Origin: an uncultured Actinomycetes bacterium
Lineage (GTDB): Bacteria > Actinomycetota > Thermoleophilia > Solirubrobacterales > Solirubrobacteraceae
Assembly (NCBI GenBank): GCA_937888775.1
Contig: CALAQT010000328.1
Coordinates: forward strand, 1-27,103
Direction: 5' to 3'
Length of the DNA: 27,103 nucleotides
In this document: piece by piece, positions 890-18,752 of the stretch
How positions within the stretch are numbered: the stretch's first letter is position 1
How the letters are laid out: each line of letters starts with the position of its first letter
Notes under the pieces: generated by a model
What the model was told of the DNA's origin: nothing
The model's input: the letters and a program-made list of their open reading frames with translations, nothing else
Databases searched by the model: none
Position numbers and translations under genes: made by a program

Positions 890-1290
890 CGCCACTGCGC
901 CGGCGAACCTCGAGTGCCGCTCTGGATCTGGATCGGACGGCGTCCGTGGACTCGATCGCCTCGGCCAGATCGTCGGGCCCGCCGGATCCACCGGCGGTCG
1001 ATCCCGAGCTGCTCGCGCAGCGCGGTCGGCTGATCGAGCGCTTTGCCGTGATGCAGTCCGAGCTCGGCGGACTGTTCTACGAGATGGCGATCCGTGATCA
1101 CGTGAGGATGGACGTGCTGATCCCGAAGGCAGCCGAGCTCCAGCGGGTCGACTCCGAGCTTGGACAACTGCAGCGAATGATCGAGACCGGCGCCACCAGC
1201 GTGGGCGGCAACTGCCCCGCCTGCGGGGCCGTATACGGGCACGGCGCCGCGTTCTGTGCCCAATGCGCCCAGCCACTGGCCGAGCCATGA
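886..1290 (+). CDS. Small coiled-coil protein with C-terminal zinc ribbon
   Basis: This 134-residue protein starts at the ATG overlapping the previous stop. Residues 1-35 look disordered (Ser/Asp/Pro-rich). Residues about 38-95 are rich in Leu/Glu/Arg with heptad-like spacing, so probably helical or coiled coil. The C-terminus carries a CPACG...CAQC zinc ribbon with Cys110, Cys113, Cys124 and Cys127. No signal peptide or membrane helix is visible, so it is probably cytoplasmic. Its stop overlaps the ATG of the next gene (1287-1290). The neighbouring upstream protein carries a similar ribbon, so the two may belong to one assembly. I do not recognise a named family, and no enzymatic motif is visible. 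Confidence 0.75.
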   Translation: MTPLRRRTSSAALDLDRTASVDSIASARSSGPPDPPAVDPELLAQRGRLIERFAVMQSELGGLFYEMAIRDHVRMDVLIPKAAELQRVDSELGQLQRMIETGATSVGGNCPACGAVYGHGAAFCAQCAQPLAEP

Positions 1291-13286: not shown

Positions 13287-14708
13287 TCAGCGCGCCGCGG
13301 GAGCCTTGGTCGCGTCCGGCGCGGTGGTCTCACCCCTGCCGGTCGAGGGTCCGAAGGAGATCCGCAGGACCGCGCCGCCGTCGGGCGCGTTGGCGGCCTC
13401 CACGGACCCGCCGTGGGCTTCGGCCGCCTGTTTGACGATCGCCAGACCGAGGCCCGATCCCGGCATTCGCCGCGCTGCCTCGGCGCGGTAGAAGCGATCG
13501 AACACGTGCTGGAGGTCGGCTTCCTTGAAGCCCGGGCCGTGGTCGCGGACGCACAGCAGTCCATCGCGGAGAAGGACTTCGATCCGTCCGTCCGGTGGAC
13601 TCCACTTGCGCGCGTTGTCGATCACGTTGGTGACGGCCCGGCTGACGCGATCGGGAGCATTGACGATCACCGTTGGTTCGAGCTGCAGGCTGAACTGCAG
13701 CTGAGAAGCCCGGCGCTGGGCTCGTCCCACCGCCTCACTGACGATCTGGTCGAGTTCGATCGCCTCCGTGTGCTCGCTGGGGGCCGATCCGCGCGCCAGC
13801 TCGACGACATCGGCGACCAGCTGCGTGAGCTCGTCGAGCTCGGCGACGATCGCATGCTGCAGGCCCTCGCGCTCCTCCTCGGGAAGCCGGTGGGCCTCCA
13901 GGAAGATCTGGATGTTGCTGCGCAGCGCGGCCATCGGCGTGCGCAGCTCATGCGAAGCGTCGGCGATCAGGTGACGCTGAGACTGAATCGAGCGCTCGAG
14001 TGCATCCAGGGTCCGGTTAAAGCTCGCGGCCAGGCGACGAAGCTCGCTGGCCCCCTTCTCCTCCAGCCGCCGCGGCCGGTCAAGCGCGCTGGTCACCTGT
14101 TCGGTCTGCTCGGAGAAGCGCTCGATCGGGGCCAGCGCCGAGCGGGCGATCAAGGTGCCGAGCACCCCCGCCAGCAGCACCCCGCCCCCGATCAGCAGGC
14201 CGTAGGTCAGCAGCAGCGAGCTCAGGACCGAATCGACCGAGGTCAGCGGCAGTGCGATCTCGACCGCGTAGTGGTCGTAGGGGTCGCCGACCGTCAGCAC
14301 CTCGACGTGGTAGCCGTGAACCGTGGCGGTCGTGAAGAAGCTCCCGCGCGCCCGTCTGGCGATCGCCAGCGTGCGCGCATCGACCGGCAGGTCCTTGCCG
14401 CCGGTCACGGCGACCACGCGGCCATCCGGGCGCACGATCTGGAAGTACCCGGGCGCTCCGCCCAGCGGCGGAGCCTTCGGCGGGCTGGGGCGTCCGGAAA
14501 ACTGCGGCCCGCCGCCGCCGTTTGCGCCAGACTGGCCCCCGCCGGAGGTATGCGGTTGCAGGTACGGCTTGGCGCGTCCGTGCAGCTCCTGCTGAAGCTC
14601 TCCGACCAGATGCGAGCGGGTGCTGAGGTATCCGGCGACTCCCAGCGTCACGGCCACCGCCGCGACCGCCAGCGCGGCCGCCCCGGTGATCCGCCGTCGC
14701 AGGCTCAC
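13287..14708 (-). CDS. Two-component sensor histidine kinase (HAMP, HisKA, HATPase_c)
   Basis: This 473-residue membrane kinase has a first membrane helix at about 8-29 and an extracytoplasmic region (about 30-165) with a Gly/Pro-rich insert and a small sensor-like fold (YFQIVRPDGRVVAVTGG). A second helix (about 168-188), a HAMP linker, the phospho-acceptor His253 in DASHELRTP, the N box (NVIDNARKW), the DHGPGF G1 box and GSGLGLAIVKQ (G2) follow. This is the MprB/TcrY-like actinobacterial layout. The ATG at 14708 overlaps the stop of the response-regulator gene, so the pair is co-translated. The signal is unknown; the envelope-facing domain and the adjacent glycosyltransferase point to envelope stress or composition. 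Confidence 0.93.
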   Translation of the reverse strand: MSLRRRITGAAALAVAAVAVTLGVAGYLSTRSHLVGELQQELHGRAKPYLQPHTSGGGQSGANGGGGPQFSGRPSPPKAPPLGGAPGYFQIVRPDGRVVAVTGGKDLPVDARTLAIARRARGSFFTTATVHGYHVEVLTVGDPYDHYAVEIALPLTSVDSVLSSLLLTYGLLIGGGVLLAGVLGTLIARSALAPIERFSEQTEQVTSALDRPRRLEEKGASELRRLAASFNRTLDALERSIQSQRHLIADASHELRTPMAALRSNIQIFLEAHRLPEEEREGLQHAIVAELDELTQLVADVVELARGSAPSEHTEAIELDQIVSEAVGRAQRRASQLQFSLQLEPTVIVNAPDRVSRAVTNVIDNARKWSPPDGRIEVLLRDGLLCVRDHGPGFKEADLQHVFDRFYRAEAARRMPGSGLGLAIVKQAAEAHGGSVEAANAPDGGAVLRISFGPSTGRGETTAPDATKAPAAR

Positions 14709-15379
14709 GACTGACGCAGGACGTAGCCCACGCCGTGGACCGTCTGGATCAGCCGCGGTTCCCCGTCGGCCTCCAGCTTGCGTCGCAGGTAACCGATGTA
14801 CACGCGCAGCGCATTGCCGCCCGGACCGAAGTCATAGCCCCAGATGCGGTCATAGATCAGCTCCGTGGAGAGCACCCGGCGCGGATTGAGCATCAGCAGC
14901 TCCAGGAGCTGGTATTCGGTGCGGGTCAGATCGATCAGCCGATCGCCGATCCGCGCACCGTGGGCATCCGCGTCGAGCTCGAGCCCGTTGAACTTCAGCG
15001 ATCGGCCGTCGACGCCATCGATGTGCCGGCGCATGATCGCGTGCAGCCGCGCCTGCAACTCACGCACGTCGTAGGGCTTGATCAGATAGTCATCGGCCCC
15101 GGCCTCCAGACCATCGACGCGGTCCTCGACCGCGTCGCGGGCCGTGAGCATCAGGATCGGGGTCCGGTTGCCGACGCTGCGCAGCCGGCGACAGACCTCC
15201 ATCCCGTCGATGTCGGGCAGGCCCAGGTCGAGCACGATCGCGTCCGGCACGTCCGTTTCGGCTTTGAGCAGACCTTCCTGGCCGTTCTGTGCAGCCAGGA
15301 CCTCGTAGCCGGCGAGCAGAAGCGCCCGTCGCACCGCGGCACGGACCGAGTCGTCGTCGTCGATCACCAACACTCGCAT
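14705..15379 (-). CDS. OmpR/PhoB-family response regulator
   Basis: This 224-residue protein has a receiver domain (1-115) with the acidic pocket IDDDDS, the phospho-acceptor Asp51 in VLDLGLPD, the conserved Thr in MLTARD and the switch Lys in YLIKPYD. A winged-helix DNA-binding domain follows (about 125-222) with LTRTEYQLLELLMLNPRRVL and the wing GYVLRQS. The ATG at 15379 has an AGAGGAGA ribosome site just upstream. It is the first gene of a minus-strand operon with the kinase, and probably controls its own promoter and the glycosyltransferase gene. Sequence type resembles MprA/TcrX; the actual regulon is unknown. Confidence 0.94.
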   Translation of the reverse strand: MRVLVIDDDDSVRAAVRRALLLAGYEVLAAQNGQEGLLKAETDVPDAIVLDLGLPDIDGMEVCRRLRSVGNRTPILMLTARDAVEDRVDGLEAGADDYLIKPYDVRELQARLHAIMRRHIDGVDGRSLKFNGLELDADAHGARIGDRLIDLTRTEYQLLELLMLNPRRVLSTELIYDRIWGYDFGPGGNALRVYIGYLRRKLEADGEPRLIQTVHGVGYVLRQS

Positions 15380-15698
15380 CGCGATCTCCTCTGGCTCATG
15401 GCATGCATCTCTGTCGCCGATCAGTTTGCCGATCGCGCCATGGATGTTGTCCGATCGCGCCCAGGCGTGTAGAGCGCTCGGTCATCGCCCGGCCGTCACG
15501 ATCTCGGACGCCTTCCCGTGGGTGCGCCGATGAGGCCAGGCCTTCCCGAGATCATCGCTTACCTCTTACTCAGTTGCAGAGACGTGATGCCCGATGGTCC
15601 CGGTGACCTCTCGCAACGCCGTGAGAGGGATGTAAGCCAGAGGTATGAGCGACCGCCGCCGCAAGCGCGCGGCTGCTCGGCCACCGACCGTCGCAGTT
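15380..15698. other. Intergenic region upstream of the two-component operon
   Basis: About 320 bases with no convincing gene. It must hold the minus-strand promoter of the response-regulator operon. The only structure I see is an inverted repeat CCTCTC (15607-15612) / GAGAGG (15623-15628). No repeat family or RNA gene is recognised. Confidence 0.4.
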
Positions 15699-15761
15699 GT
15701 GGCACCATCATGGCACGTATTAGCTTGACATGGTGCCATGATGGTGCCATAATGGCACCAT
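15699..15761. promoter_or_regulatory. Operator array: two clusters of ATGGTGCCAT-type sites at 11-bp spacing
   Basis: Cluster A has GTGGCACCAT (15699-15708) and the weaker ATGGCACGTA (15710-15719), 11 bp apart. Cluster B has ATGGTGCCAT (15730-15739), ATGGTGCCAT (15741-15750) and its complement ATGGCACCAT (15752-15761), again exactly 11 bp apart. Each decamer is a palindrome except for its central two bases. One-turn phasing puts all sites of a cluster on one face of the helix, as in tandem operators of ribbon-helix-helix repressors. The next gene encodes a ribbon-helix-helix domain, so autorepression is likely. Cluster B covers the promoter spacer, the -10 box and the predicted transcription start. 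Confidence 0.75.
15725..15753 (+). promoter_or_regulatory. Near-consensus housekeeping-sigma promoter
   Basis: TTGACA (15725-15730) and CATAAT (15748-15753) are separated by 17 bp, an unusually good match for a high-GC genome. Transcription should start about 15759-15761, right where coding homology of the next gene begins, implying a leaderless or nearly leaderless message. The operator array overlaps it. Confidence 0.7.
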
Positions 15762-16314
15762 AGATCTGCGGCTCTACATCGATGACATCCACCACCAGCT
15801 CGCGGTTGCCGCCGAGGCCGGTGGTGATGACGCTCGTGCGCTCGCCGAGCGCCTTGTCGCACCTCTGGACGCAGCGATCCGCCTCGCTTTGCAGGACGTG
15901 CTGGCGGCGGCGGCTGAGGAGATCACCTGCGAGCTCGCTCCGGGCTCGGTTGAGCTGCGCCTGCGCGGACGTAACCCCGAGTTCGTGGTGACACCGCCGC
16001 CTGTCGATACGTCCGTCGACGACCTGTCCGAGGGCGACCATGACAAGACGCCAACCGGCTGGCCGGTGACCGCGACGGGTGTCGCGCCGCGCGCTTCAGT
16101 CGAGGCTGACGAGGGCGCGATGTCGCGGATCAACCTCCGCATGCATGATCACCTCAAGGCTCGGATCGAGCAGGCCGCGGGCAGCGAAGGACTTTCGGTC
16201 AACACCTGGCTCGTACGAGCAGCCACCGCCGCTCTGGAAAGAGGCGATCTCGACCGTCGGCGCGAGCCACGCGCCCCGCAGAGCGCTCAGCGCTACACGG
16301 GCTGGGCGCGCTAA
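15760..16314 (+). CDS. Ribbon-helix-helix (HicB/Arc-like) protein, candidate autorepressor; start codon abnormal
   Basis: The frame is open from 15742 to the TAA at 16314. Protein-like sequence begins with DLRLYIDDIHHQLAVAAEAG at 15763, yet no in-frame ATG, GTG or TTG occurs before the TTG at 15889, which would remove half of the N-terminal domain. The codon at the expected position is ATA (15760); CTG at 15766 is another possibility. Counting from 15760 gives 184 residues. An N-terminal helical domain (about 1-75, with ERLVAPLDAAIRLALQDVLA) resembles proteins annotated as HicB-type antitoxins. A Pro/Asp-rich linker and a C-terminal ribbon-helix-helix follow (about 121-165: SRINLRMHDHLKARIEQAAG then LSVNTWLVRAATAAL). 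No toxin gene adjoins it. It probably binds the array upstream and controls the DUF4097 gene 78 bp downstream. Confidence 0.75.
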   Translation: MDLRLYIDDIHHQLAVAAEAGGDDARALAERLVAPLDAAIRLALQDVLAAAAEEITCELAPGSVELRLRGRNPEFVVTPPPVDTSVDDLSEGDHDKTPTGWPVTATGVAPRASVEADEGAMSRINLRMHDHLKARIEQAAGSEGLSVNTWLVRAATAALERGDLDRRREPRAPQSAQRYTGWAR

Positions 16315-16392
16315 CCGAGCTCGCGCCCGGGAATGTCTCGCACCACGACTCTCAGCAGCGGGACCGCCCGCCATCCCACCGGAAGGACTGCC

Positions 16393-17280
16393 ATGCCTGC
16401 TTTCGATACTCCCGAACCCATCTCCGTCACCGTGGAGCTCGGGGTCGGTGACATCCGGATCGTGGCAACTGAGCGCACTGACACCATCGTTGAGGTGCGC
16501 CCGAGCGACGGTGCCAAGAAGTCTGACGTGACCGGCGCCGATCAAACTCGCGTCCAGTACGCCAGCGGCAGGCTGCTGATCAAGGCACCCAAGGGATGGC
16601 GGAGGTACACCCCTTGGGGAGGCCGCGAGTCGATCGATGTGCAGATCGCGCTTCCGGCGGGGTCGCACGTGCGGGCCGATGCAGGGATCGCGGCGTTGCG
16701 GTGCGCAGGTCGGCTCGGCGAATGCCGCTATCAGACCGGCATCGGCGATATCCAACTCGACCAAGCTGGCCCGGTGGCGCTCAAGACCGGCGCGGGTGAC
16801 ATCACCGTGGATCGAGCGCTGGACCACGCTGAGCTCACTACGGGTTCTGGTGCGGTGCAAATCGGCAGCATCGACGGCACCGCCGTGATCAAGAACTCCA
16901 ACGGCGACACTTGGATTGGCGAGGTCACCGGCGACCTTAGGTTGAACGCGGCAAACGGGAAGATCTCTGTCGATCAGGCGCACGCCACGGTTGCGGCCAA
17001 GACCGCCAACGGCGACGTCCGCCTCGGCGAGGTCGCGCGTGGTGCGGTCCTCGTCCAGACTGGCTTCGGCAAGCTCGATGTCGGAGTCCGTGACGGCGTC
17101 GCGGCCTGGTTGGAGCTCAATACGCAATTCGGCAACGTGCACAACAGCCTGGACGCCGCCGAGCGCCCTGAACCGGGCGAGGACACGGTGCAGGTGCGCG
17201 CCCGCACCGCCTATGGCGACATCACCATCCACCGAAACGCCACTCATCCCACCGCCGGCCCCCGAAAAGACGAGGCATGA
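16393..17280 (+). CDS. DUF4097-family beta-repeat protein
   Basis: I start at the ATG at 16393, preceded by GGAAGGA; an in-frame ATG at 16333 has no family support. The 295-residue product has the DUF4097 opening TPEPISVTVELGVGDIRIVA and then a ladder of short beta repeats with a Gly-x-Gly/Asn-Gly-Asp rhythm (KTGAGDITVDRA, TTGSGAVQIGSIDG, KNSNGDTWIGEV, NAANGKISVDQA, KTANGDVRLGEV, QTGFGKLDVGV, RTAYGDITIHR), suggesting a right-handed beta-solenoid. No signal peptide or membrane helix is visible. The function is unknown. In related actinobacteria such genes often lie between a ribbon-helix-helix gene and an ABC exporter, and here its stop overlaps the ATG of an ABC ATPase remnant (17277-17280). 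Confidence 0.85.
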   Translation: MPAFDTPEPISVTVELGVGDIRIVATERTDTIVEVRPSDGAKKSDVTGADQTRVQYASGRLLIKAPKGWRRYTPWGGRESIDVQIALPAGSHVRADAGIAALRCAGRLGECRYQTGIGDIQLDQAGPVALKTGAGDITVDRALDHAELTTGSGAVQIGSIDGTAVIKNSNGDTWIGEVTGDLRLNAANGKISVDQAHATVAAKTANGDVRLGEVARGAVLVQTGFGKLDVGVRDGVAAWLELNTQFGNVHNSLDAAERPEPGEDTVQVRARTAYGDITIHRNATHPTAGPRKDEA

Positions 17281-17448
17281 CCACGACCACGGTTCGGCCG
17301 GCGCTGGAGGCCACCCACCGTCTTCCTCACCACCCAGAACCTGGAGGAAGCCGACCAGCTCGCCGACCGCATTGCCCTCCTCGACCACGGTCGCCTGGTT
17401 GCCGATGGCACCCCGCGGTCTCTCCGAGCCGTTCTCGACCGGGTTTGA
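17277..17448 (+). pseudogene. Remnant of DrrA-type ABC exporter ATPase (internal deletion)
   Basis: After an ATG overlapping the DUF4097 stop, about 13 codons of a plausible N-terminus ([13 protein letters not shown]) run directly, with a frame change, into the C-terminal part of a DrrA-like ATPase. The other frame reads [20 protein letters not shown] and then [12 protein letters not shown], stopping at 17446-17448. The Walker A, Q-loop, signature and Walker B regions, roughly 150-200 codons, are absent, as is any permease gene. It cannot encode a working transporter. The preserved ends show this was once the third gene of the operon. Confidence 0.8.
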
Positions 17449-17509
17449 ATCGCGCATCGTCTTCACCAGGAGCACCGCGATTCACACCGACCGAGTCGCC
17501 TTCAGAACG

Positions 17510-17665
17510 TTTGATCGGTCAAATACCATAAACCATGGGCTAAAATAGGGTTTTAGGCGAAAGGCGGGCTCGCCGATGGCAGCAGCTACGTGGGAATTGC
17601 TGCCCACCAAACAATAAAATAAAATCAATCCAGTTTATGCACTTTGCGGACGGAGGGAACTAAGA
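17510..17665 (+). promoter_or_regulatory. AT-rich leader of the peroxiredoxin gene with inverted repeats
   Basis: This region is far more AT-rich than its surroundings. It contains the near-palindrome TTTGATCGGTCAAA (17510-17523), a possible -10 TAAAAT (17541-17546), the stem TAAAA/TTTTA (17541-17555), a small GGCG/CGCC stem (17563-17574), and a 7-bp stem GGCAGCA (17578-17584) with TGCTGCC (17598-17604). A strong GGAGGGA ribosome site lies at 17652-17658. The first repeat could be a redox or repressor operator and the later stems a structured leader; I cannot match it to a known riboswitch. Confidence 0.4.
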
Positions 17666-18325
17666 ATGACCTTGCAGATTGGCTCGACCGCCCCGGATTT
17701 CGAGGCCGAGACGACAGAAGGCCGGATCCACTTCCATGACTGGATCGGCGACTCCTGGGCGGTGCTGTTCTCACACCCCCGTAACTTCACCCCGGTCTGC
17801 ACGACAGAGCTCGGGTACATGGCTCGGATCGAGCCCGAGTTCGAGCGCCGCGGCGTGAAGGTCATCGGACTCTCCGTCGATCCGATCGAGAACCACGCGA
17901 AATGGGCGATCGACATTGAGGACACCCAGGGCACCGCGCCGAATTATCCGATCATCGCCGACGCCGACTTCGCGGTCTCCAAGCTCTACGGGATGCTGCC
18001 GGCCGATACCTCGGGTGACCCGACGGCGCGCACCCCGGCAGACAACCAGACTGTGCGCAACGTGTTCGTGATCGGGCCTGACAGGAAGGTCAAGCTGATC
18101 CTGATCTACCCGATGACGACCGGCCGCAACTTCGACGAAGTCCTCCGCGTGATCGACTCACTGCAGCTGACCGCGCAGCACAAGGTCGCCACTCCGGTCA
18201 ACTGGAAGCCGGGCGACGACGTCATCATCGCCGGCTCGGTCTCCGACGAGGAGGCCCGCGACAAGTACCCCGATGGCTGGGAGTCCCCGCGCCCCTACAT
18301 CCGCATCGTCCCGCAGCCCAAATGA
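17666..18325 (+). CDS. 1-Cys peroxiredoxin (Prx6 family)
   Basis: This 219-residue thiol peroxidase has the active-site signature P38-x-x-x-T42-x-x-C45 (PRNFTPVCTTE), where Cys45 is the peroxidatic cysteine. The long C-terminal domain (about 165-219, with VNWKPGDDVIIAGSVSDEEA) is typical of the Prx6/AhpE-like 1-Cys class. No resolving cysteine is visible: Cys45 is the only cysteine in the protein. It reduces peroxides in the cytoplasm using an external thiol. The start is firmly set by GGAGGGA 8 bases before the ATG. It seems to be transcribed alone, from the AT-rich leader, and a hairpin lies about 155 bases after the stop. Confidence 0.94.
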   Translation: MTLQIGSTAPDFEAETTEGRIHFHDWIGDSWAVLFSHPRNFTPVCTTELGYMARIEPEFERRGVKVIGLSVDPIENHAKWAIDIEDTQGTAPNYPIIADADFAVSKLYGMLPADTSGDPTARTPADNQTVRNVFVIGPDRKVKLILIYPMTTGRNFDEVLRVIDSLQLTAQHKVATPVNWKPGDDVIIAGSVSDEEARDKYPDGWESPRPYIRIVPQPK

Positions 18326-18752
18326 ACGCCAAGAATCCGGACTGAACGACGGAACAACCCAGGGCCTGATCGTCGAGGCCGGCTAGGGCGATTACGCGGA
18401 CGCGGCGGCTGCCCGTGCGCCCGGCTGTCGCTCGCTCAAATCCTGCTCATCACCCCTCGGAGCAGTGTCCCGGGGACAGCGGCGCGCCCAACACGGGCGC
18501 GCCGCCGCTGCTTCACAAATGCATTGCGTGGAAGGTTGATCCTCCTCCACCCGCGGGTGTACACGCGAGAGGCAAGCGAACCGCTCCGGGCGCAAGTTGC
18601 TGCTGGCGATTTCGTTTGAGTGGTGCCCGGCATGTCGCCAACGATTTCCTTGGCCACCAGCGACGAATGCCCTCAGCCCCCCAGAACTCGCGGCGGGCGT
18701 CGATTACCGGCGCATCCTCGGCGACCGTGGCGACGATCGCATCCTCGTCGTC
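18326..18752. other. Gene-poor gap with a strong hairpin (18479-18505)
   Basis: I see no credible gene in these about 430 bases; frames on both strands lack ribosome sites and family features. The notable element is a perfect 11-bp stem, GCGGCGCGCCC (18479-18489) with GGGCGCGCCGC (18495-18505) around the loop AACAC. It fits a bidirectional terminator between the plus-strand peroxiredoxin and the minus-strand DUF2630 gene. Confidence 0.5.

Follow-up and report, generated by a model that had tools for sequence, protein, structure and literature searches.

This work revealed a phased array of palindromic TGRYRYCA operators at positions 15,699–15,761 of the window (the whole stretch of 27,103 nucleotides that was analyzed), extending through a promoter up to the first base of a gene that encodes a putative ribbon-helix-helix (RHH) autoregulator. 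The array is confirmed as a real feature of this DNA. We consider, with a probability of about 0.86, that it is the operator for cooperative autorepression of an operon encoding the RHH protein, a Toastrack (DUF4097) protein and an ABC exporter. The autorepression switch predicted in a preliminary description of this DNA is thus supported. What was observed in the window and its relatives is the array, its conservation and register, the co-variation between operator and RHH domain, the gene order and the RHH domain itself; DNA binding, cooperativity, repression, the transcription start point, a single transcript and the inducing signal are inferred.

Organization of the Array and Promoter in the Window

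The promoter includes a −35 hexamer TTGACA (15,725–15,730, plus strand), supported by sequence and column conservation, and a −10 hexamer CATAAT (15,748–15,753, plus strand) at a distance of 17 bp, exactly as the preliminary description had proposed. Three operators cover it (as for the two upstream sites, no strand is assigned): (i) O1 (15,730–15,739; octamer 15,731–15,738, slot −29), located in the promoter spacer and devoid of mismatches on one strand, (ii) O2 (15,741–15,750; octamer 15,742–15,749, slot −18; no mismatch), whose last CA opens the −10 box, and (iii) O3 (15,752–15,761; octamer 15,753–15,760, slot −7; no mismatch), which runs into the start codon. The −10 hexamer is thus common to O2 and O3. 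Two other sites lie upstream: gtggcaccat (15,699–15,708; one mismatch), which occupies the family slot at about −61/−60 (family peak −62 to −60), and atggcacgta (15,710–15,719; three mismatches to the better strand reading), at about −50/−49 (family peak −52 to −49). The start-to-start distances between these five decamers are 11, 20, 11 and 11 bp. The five near-palindromes counted in the preliminary description are therefore reduced to four good sites, each of which, on one strand, differs from the decamer ATGGTGCCAT by no more than one base, the copy at 15,710–15,719 being a half-operator at best. Taken alone, this decamer is not rarer than expected by chance (22 matches with up to two mismatches in the window versus 16.1 expected, a value of 22 being reached in 12 of 100 shuffles). 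The 11-bp-phased TGRYRYCA triplet is found once in the window versus never in 1000 dinucleotide shuffles of the window.

Conservation of the Array and of Its Register

Of 7999 candidates scored by phmmer, at least 6888 proved to be relatives of the RHH protein (E ≤ 0.001). The promoters examined (n = 251) correspond to the window, the 80 best-scoring places out of 187 confirmed in genomes, 90 loci that were the best matches of further searches and 80 regions that we chose from match lists; removal of four duplicates left 247 distinct members, including the window. An in-register site was defined as a 7-of-8 octamer match at a fixed slot, with a tolerance of one base on either side for O1. The preliminary description had cited absence of the array from orthologous promoters as one observation that would refute its reading. 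The search was carried out and did not show such an absence: at least one in-register octamer is present in 237 of the 247 promoters and two or three in 212 (three sites in 163 members, two in 49, one in 25 and none in 10). The corresponding averages for shuffled upstream sequences of the 247 members are 239.1 with no site, 7.8 with one and 0.02 with two (7.9 with at least one). Furthermore, among the first 80 loci, two or more sites were found at 71 of the 80 RHH starts compared to only nine of 3355 other ATG starts, six of these nine being the same array read on the opposite strand; these control starts are those of any open frame of at least 150 codons, most of which are surely not genes.

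The 10 members devoid of in-register sites all carry tandem octamers at 11 bp upstream if mismatches are allowed. These octamers are shifted by one base in L234 and L235, form a triplet whose last octamer lies 158–224 bp 5′ of the start in L183, L185, L197, L198, L199 and L201, form a pair at −134/−123 in L184 and are located at −61, −50 and −39 in L187. In L183, L185, L198, L199 and L201, a short open frame of 44–50 codons begins at the triplet. In L259–L263 (genomes G076, G125, G090, G111 and G051), short frames of 44–50 codons that resemble one another start at the array, with ATG in four of them and ATA in L261, the RHH gene being located 151–217 bp further downstream. The near-fixed register spans genomes titled Actinomycetota and Dormibacterota. 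Relatives were found in 43 plasmid records, 37 of them from Streptomyces; none was found in viral contigs or phage records.

Alignment of the 247 promoters on their start codons reveals a family-wide TGRYRYCA comb with a period of 11 bp, whose teeth are near −72 (53 octamers, ±1 base), −61 (115, ±1 base), −50 (129, −52 to −49), −30/−29 (214), −18 (177) and −7 (219), compared to 0–4 octamers per position in shuffled controls. Sites thus recur every 11 bp through the promoter. The slot at −40/−39, beside the −35 box, is occupied by three octamers only, and smaller peaks are found off the comb at −35/−34 (33), −15 (22) and −10 (10). The −10 box takes its two initial bases from O2 and its final one from O3, whose own last base is the first of the start codon.

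Gene Start and Predicted Leaderless Message

The putative RHH autoregulator gene (184 codons) extends from 15,760 to 16,314 on the plus strand, its start being assigned by homology. The frame downstream of the array contains no ATG, GTG or TTG before 15,889, and all 20 aligned homologues begin at the codon aligned with 15,760. An ATG is found at the equivalent position in 246 of the 247 distinct members, the window carrying ATA (15,760–15,762). For L081 and later loci, the start retained was whichever ATG, GTG or TTG lay closest to the start predicted by homology, at a distance of no more than four codons; the start of L056 was shifted by two codons. As the start codon lies seven bases past the end of the −10 box, i.e., at the predicted transcription start (+1), the message of the RHH gene should be leaderless. 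This gene start, the predicted leaderless promoter and the extension of the comb through the whole promoter across the family had all been overlooked in the preliminary description. Besides, the present findings provide a means to correct start codons.

Leaderless genes of actinobacteria have been described as carrying a TANNNT box about 10–12 bp 5′ of the start codon (PMC3160421, PMC3898074). In the present family, the −10 box spans −12 to −7; among the 247 members, 228 have A at −11 and 231 have T at −7, and these two bases and the ATG are invariant in the first 80 loci (80/80). The box opens with C in 225 of the 247 members, so that the position of the resulting CANNNT fits whereas its first letter differs from the textbook leaderless box, because the operator demands a C there. 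Leaderless translation is reported to strictly require ATG in Escherichia coli and to accept also GTG in Mycobacterium tuberculosis (PMC3898074). Therefore, translation from the ATA of the window should be weak. This codon, which heads an otherwise open gene, may have arisen by mutation or reflect an error in the sequence.

Domains of the RHH Protein

The presence of an RHH domain in the downstream gene, already asserted in the preliminary description, is borne out by profile and structure matches. The protein is predicted to be an Arc-like RHH regulator preceded by an N-terminal domain for which Pfam and PDB gave no convincing match. The RHH match covers residues 123–153 (16,126–16,218, plus strand) and includes a predicted base-contacting strand, R123-I-N125-L-R127. 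Among 60 members searched against Pfam (E up to 0.01), PF05534 (HicB) was found in 54, RHH_1 in 24, TacA1 in 19 and Arc in 16; all the families matched are of RHH type, except for a weak Apolipoprotein match in two of the 60. The PF05534 score of the window protein is just over the cut-off (22.1 versus 21). The HicB RNase-H-like domain has no Pfam match in the window protein nor among the eight families matched by the 60 members. In a profile search of the PDB, the best match of the RHH domain is the DUF1778 antitoxin 6ajm (E = 0.00057), with the Arc mutant MYL at E = 0.004 and wild-type Arc at E = 0.46. Foldseek ranks Arc first for the C-terminal domain (probability 0.98–0.99, E = 0.6), with no match at E ≤ 0.001; for the N-terminal domain, it gave no convincing PDB match among the best 50 of 111.

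The AlphaFold model (pTM 0.45) comprises a confident N-terminal domain (helices at residues 4–21 and 23–59, strands at 63–69 and 72–78) and a low-confidence linker followed by the RHH helices; in this monomer, both RHH helices are visible and the strand is not. Since the N-terminal domain is unmatched in the libraries searched, it is a candidate sensor. PADLOC gave no match for the RHH or DUF4097 protein. Residues 178–184 form a conserved C-terminal tail resembling (Y/F)TGW(A/V)R after the RHH domain.

The Associated Operon and the Proposed Mechanism

In the window, the RHH gene is followed after 78 bp by a DUF4097/Toastrack gene (16,393–17,280, plus strand; Pfam score 49.4 versus a cut-off of 22.9), predicted to belong to the same operon. 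All of the 80 loci examined have a DUF4097 gene downstream in the same orientation, its match beginning no more than 252 bp away in 77 of them and about 1.8 kb after the RHH gene in L016, L026 and L028. Judged by this downstream gene and by the Pfam matches of the RHH protein, the locus does not look like a HicAB system. An identity of the DUF4097 protein with the envelope stress proteins LiaG or LiaX was rejected (26.3 bits versus a cut-off of 285 and 18.4 versus 350, respectively). An ABC ATPase motif, presumably of a DrrA-like protein, was detected downstream in 53 of the 80 loci; 17 loci with more than 3.5 kb available have none by motif and 10 are too short. The third and fourth genes encode an ABC ATPase and an ABC-2 permease in L001 and L005, and permease domains follow too in L034, L036 and L046; the downstream gene tested in L059 has no Pfam match. 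One sentence of a 2024 article (PMC11237479) mentions an operon of actinobacteria in which Toastrack, ABC ATPase and permease genes are combined with an RHH factor; this operon is very probably of the present type. The words “operator”, “palindrom”, “autoregulat” and “inverted repeat” are absent from the main text of that article.

The window itself retains only a remnant of the ATPase gene (17,277–17,436, plus strand), made of about 12 N-terminal codons (judged by eye) followed by a segment (17,317–17,436) corresponding to residues 192–231 of the intact relative in L001. About 180 codons are missing through an internal deletion within 17,277–17,447. Fewer than 250 bases separate this remnant from a peroxiredoxin gene at 17,666, which is too short for a permease gene. 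Taken together with the ATA codon, the deletion and the lack of room for a permease suggest that the copy of the window may be decaying or poorly translated. On its other side, the array adjoins divergent genes encoding a histidine kinase and a response regulator (13,287–15,379, minus strand).

In the mechanism that we propose, each RHH dimer would take one TGRYRYCA octamer. As the octamers are 11 bp apart, adjacent dimers would occupy the same face of the DNA next to one another and should show cooperative binding all along the promoter as far as +1. Since O2 and O3 supply bases of the −10 box and O3 reaches the start codon, binding of the repressor and of RNA polymerase should be mutually exclusive. 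Once repression is lifted, transcription would begin at the start codon and yield a single leaderless RHH-DUF4097-ABC exporter message. The N-terminal domain is the likely site of action of the derepressing signal, possibly together with the Toastrack protein. We also lean, with clearly less assurance, towards an extended version of this mechanism that combines a strand-residue code, a leaderless 11-bp comb with up to six or seven slots, a new N-terminal domain that would sense envelope or drug stress and release the Toastrack-ABC exporter operon, and a regulon that may reach further exporters. If true, it would define a very large family of actinobacterial regulators with a readable protein-DNA code.

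The most serious alternative, which we nevertheless regard as unlikely, is that the array is bound by the RHH protein, which would however act as an activator, or would repress only with the Toastrack protein or be titrated by it. The constant presence of the Toastrack gene downstream on the same strand recalls toxin-antitoxin operons, in which RelE for instance acts as a co-repressor of RelB (PMC2812701), and the RHH protein AmrZ is both an activator and a repressor (PMC3325190), which provides a precedent for activation. However, sites that cover the −10 box and the start point fit blocking rather than activation. Moreover, tuning by the Toastrack protein would add to autorepression, so that this alternative partly overlaps the explanation that we favor.

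Co-Variation of the RHH Domain and the Operator

OmpR/PhoB-type regulators bind tandem repeats at 10–11 bp, and a gene encoding such a regulator (14,705–15,379) lies upstream in the window on the opposite strand; the array could thus be bound by this or another regulator while the RHH protein acts elsewhere. The bases of the operators make this very improbable, as they track the strand residues of the RHH protein. Among octamers passing the threshold, proteins with Asn125 are associated with G at site position 3 (215/255) and C at position 6 (219/255), those with Thr125 with A at position 3 (210/307) and T at position 6 (238/307), and those with Ser125 with A (27/50) and T (33/50), respectively. 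Asn thus goes with TGGYRCCA, and Thr or Ser more with TGAYRTCA-like sites, the arrays being of the type TGGTGCCA in the Asn class and TGACGTCA in the Thr class. The majority half-site is concordant with residue 125 in 198 of 206 loci, a count that leaves out 41 of the 247 loci because they are tied or have no passing site. The discordant loci are L069, L144, L148, L195, L207, L215, L245 and L246, four of which carry Ser. The share of G-type half-sites averages 0.86 in the 93 Asn loci, 0.27 in the 102 Thr loci and 0.44 in the 16 Ser loci, the Ser members being intermediate.

Tree-based independent contrasts between Asn and non-Asn members number one on well-supported branches and seven on all branches. 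With a single contrast on supported branches, a tree-based sign test has no power, and phylogenetic regression and within-genome paralogues were used instead. The regression, run on the 211 loci in which four or more half-sites were scored, gave a slope of 0.50 (t = 8.7 at the best lambda of 0.85; t = 6.2 at lambda 1). In the eight genomes in which Asn and Thr paralogues were compared, the G share is higher for the Asn copy in seven and tied in one; the Thr/Ser paralogues of genome G290 differ too, the Ser copy having more G. This co-variation, in 206 loci and between paralogues of the same genome, ties the RHH protein to the DNA of the array. In profile alignment, residues 123, 125 and 127 align with Gln9, Asn11 and Arg13 of Arc, R123 and R127 being invariant in 60 of 60 aligned members; these three Arc residues were reported to contact bases (PMC12645479). 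Residue 125 (Arc Asn11) would set the third operator base, with Asn selecting G and Thr or Ser favoring A. Members with the strand RTTLR, such as L142–L149, have lopsided O1–O3 sites: 45 of their 54 perfect octamers are of the TGACACCA/TGGTGTCA type, a hint that specificity may also depend on residue 124.

Scans that take no account of proteins point in the same direction, as they land on RHH-family genes. A triplet ending in ATG, with one mismatch allowed, was searched for in two sets of 121 genomes (all but G006 of the first already searched by protein, all but G010 of the second new). It was found in 29 genomes of the first set and five of the second (34/242), and the reversed control pattern gave no match in either set. 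After merging of strands, 35 distinct triplets were retained: 27 start exactly at the ATG of an RHH-family gene, six lie 47–217 bp upstream of such an ATG (G115:C175 by coordinates only) and two are located elsewhere (G117:C30 and G115:C275). No genome searched contained more than two such triplets. A further scan of 12 genomes (two of them among the 242), with two mismatches allowed, identified 12 places in nine genomes. Nine are at RHH genes; in L252 the array precedes a degenerate RHH copy and, after it, an ATPase gene (judged by eye), L251 is ambiguous, and L253 has it directly before an ABC ATPase gene whose own ATG lies at the array. This last array (1050–1230, minus strand), accompanied by a TTGAC box, belongs to the same genome as L037 (Solirubrobacter soli), and the separate ABC ATPase gene that it precedes is a possible second member of the regulon. 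A looser array was also observed at about 7545 in L068, past the DUF4097 gene and around the third gene.

That the repeats arose by chance or form a structural element (hairpin RNA, terminator or simple repeat), as their palindromic nature and the ability of inverted copies to pair in the window could suggest, is scarcely credible given their absence as a phased triplet from the 1000 shuffles, the lack of any Rfam match at the gathering threshold in 14,500–18,500, their conservation in register with the promoter and the fact that a leaderless message would lack them.

Comparison with Known Systems

In the open-licence literature, we found no description of the array or of the residue-base code, and nothing linking DUF4097 with HicB. 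The present family lends itself readily to tests of RHH specificity and offers a first point of access to the regulation of the widespread Toastrack-exporter operon. Some relatives are named “HicB family antitoxin”, a name that is misleading for this family and can be corrected: like HicB and other RHH proteins of autorepressing toxin-antitoxin operons, most of its members searched match PF05534, but the downstream neighbor encodes DUF4097 and not HicA. DUF1778/TacA-AtaR antitoxins include the best profile match of the RHH domain, and TacA1 is the Pfam family detected in 19 of 60 members; however, they have only 81–88 residues (among the matches listed) and a toxin as partner, whereas the present partner is DUF4097.

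MetJ carries a K-I-T strand at residues 23–25 that resembles the R-I-T of the present family, and its Met boxes abut at 8 bp, unlike the sites found here, which are spaced by 11 bp. The MetJ operator is described as tandem copies of the 8-bp palindrome AGACGTCT, whose GACGTC core is also that of the Thr-class operator, and its regulon as including 9–33 genes (PMC4239095), compared to no more than two triplets per genome here. MetJ is absent from the profile matches of the RHH domain.

The Arc repressor of phage P22 is the top structural match for the C-terminal domain, a profile match and the protein with whose base-contacting residues the strand residues align; its dimers sit in two adjacent major grooves, a placement that the present dimers may share. 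Nevertheless, Arc has only 53 residues, lacks the N-terminal domain and recognizes a TAGA-type operator, and the parts of the literature examined do not report for Arc any 11-bp comb joined to a leaderless start. Overall, RHH autorepressors with tandem sites are already known; what is new is a comb integrated into a predicted leaderless promoter and its start codon, together with the near-constant register of this comb and a residue-to-base switch that about two hundred natural pairs display.
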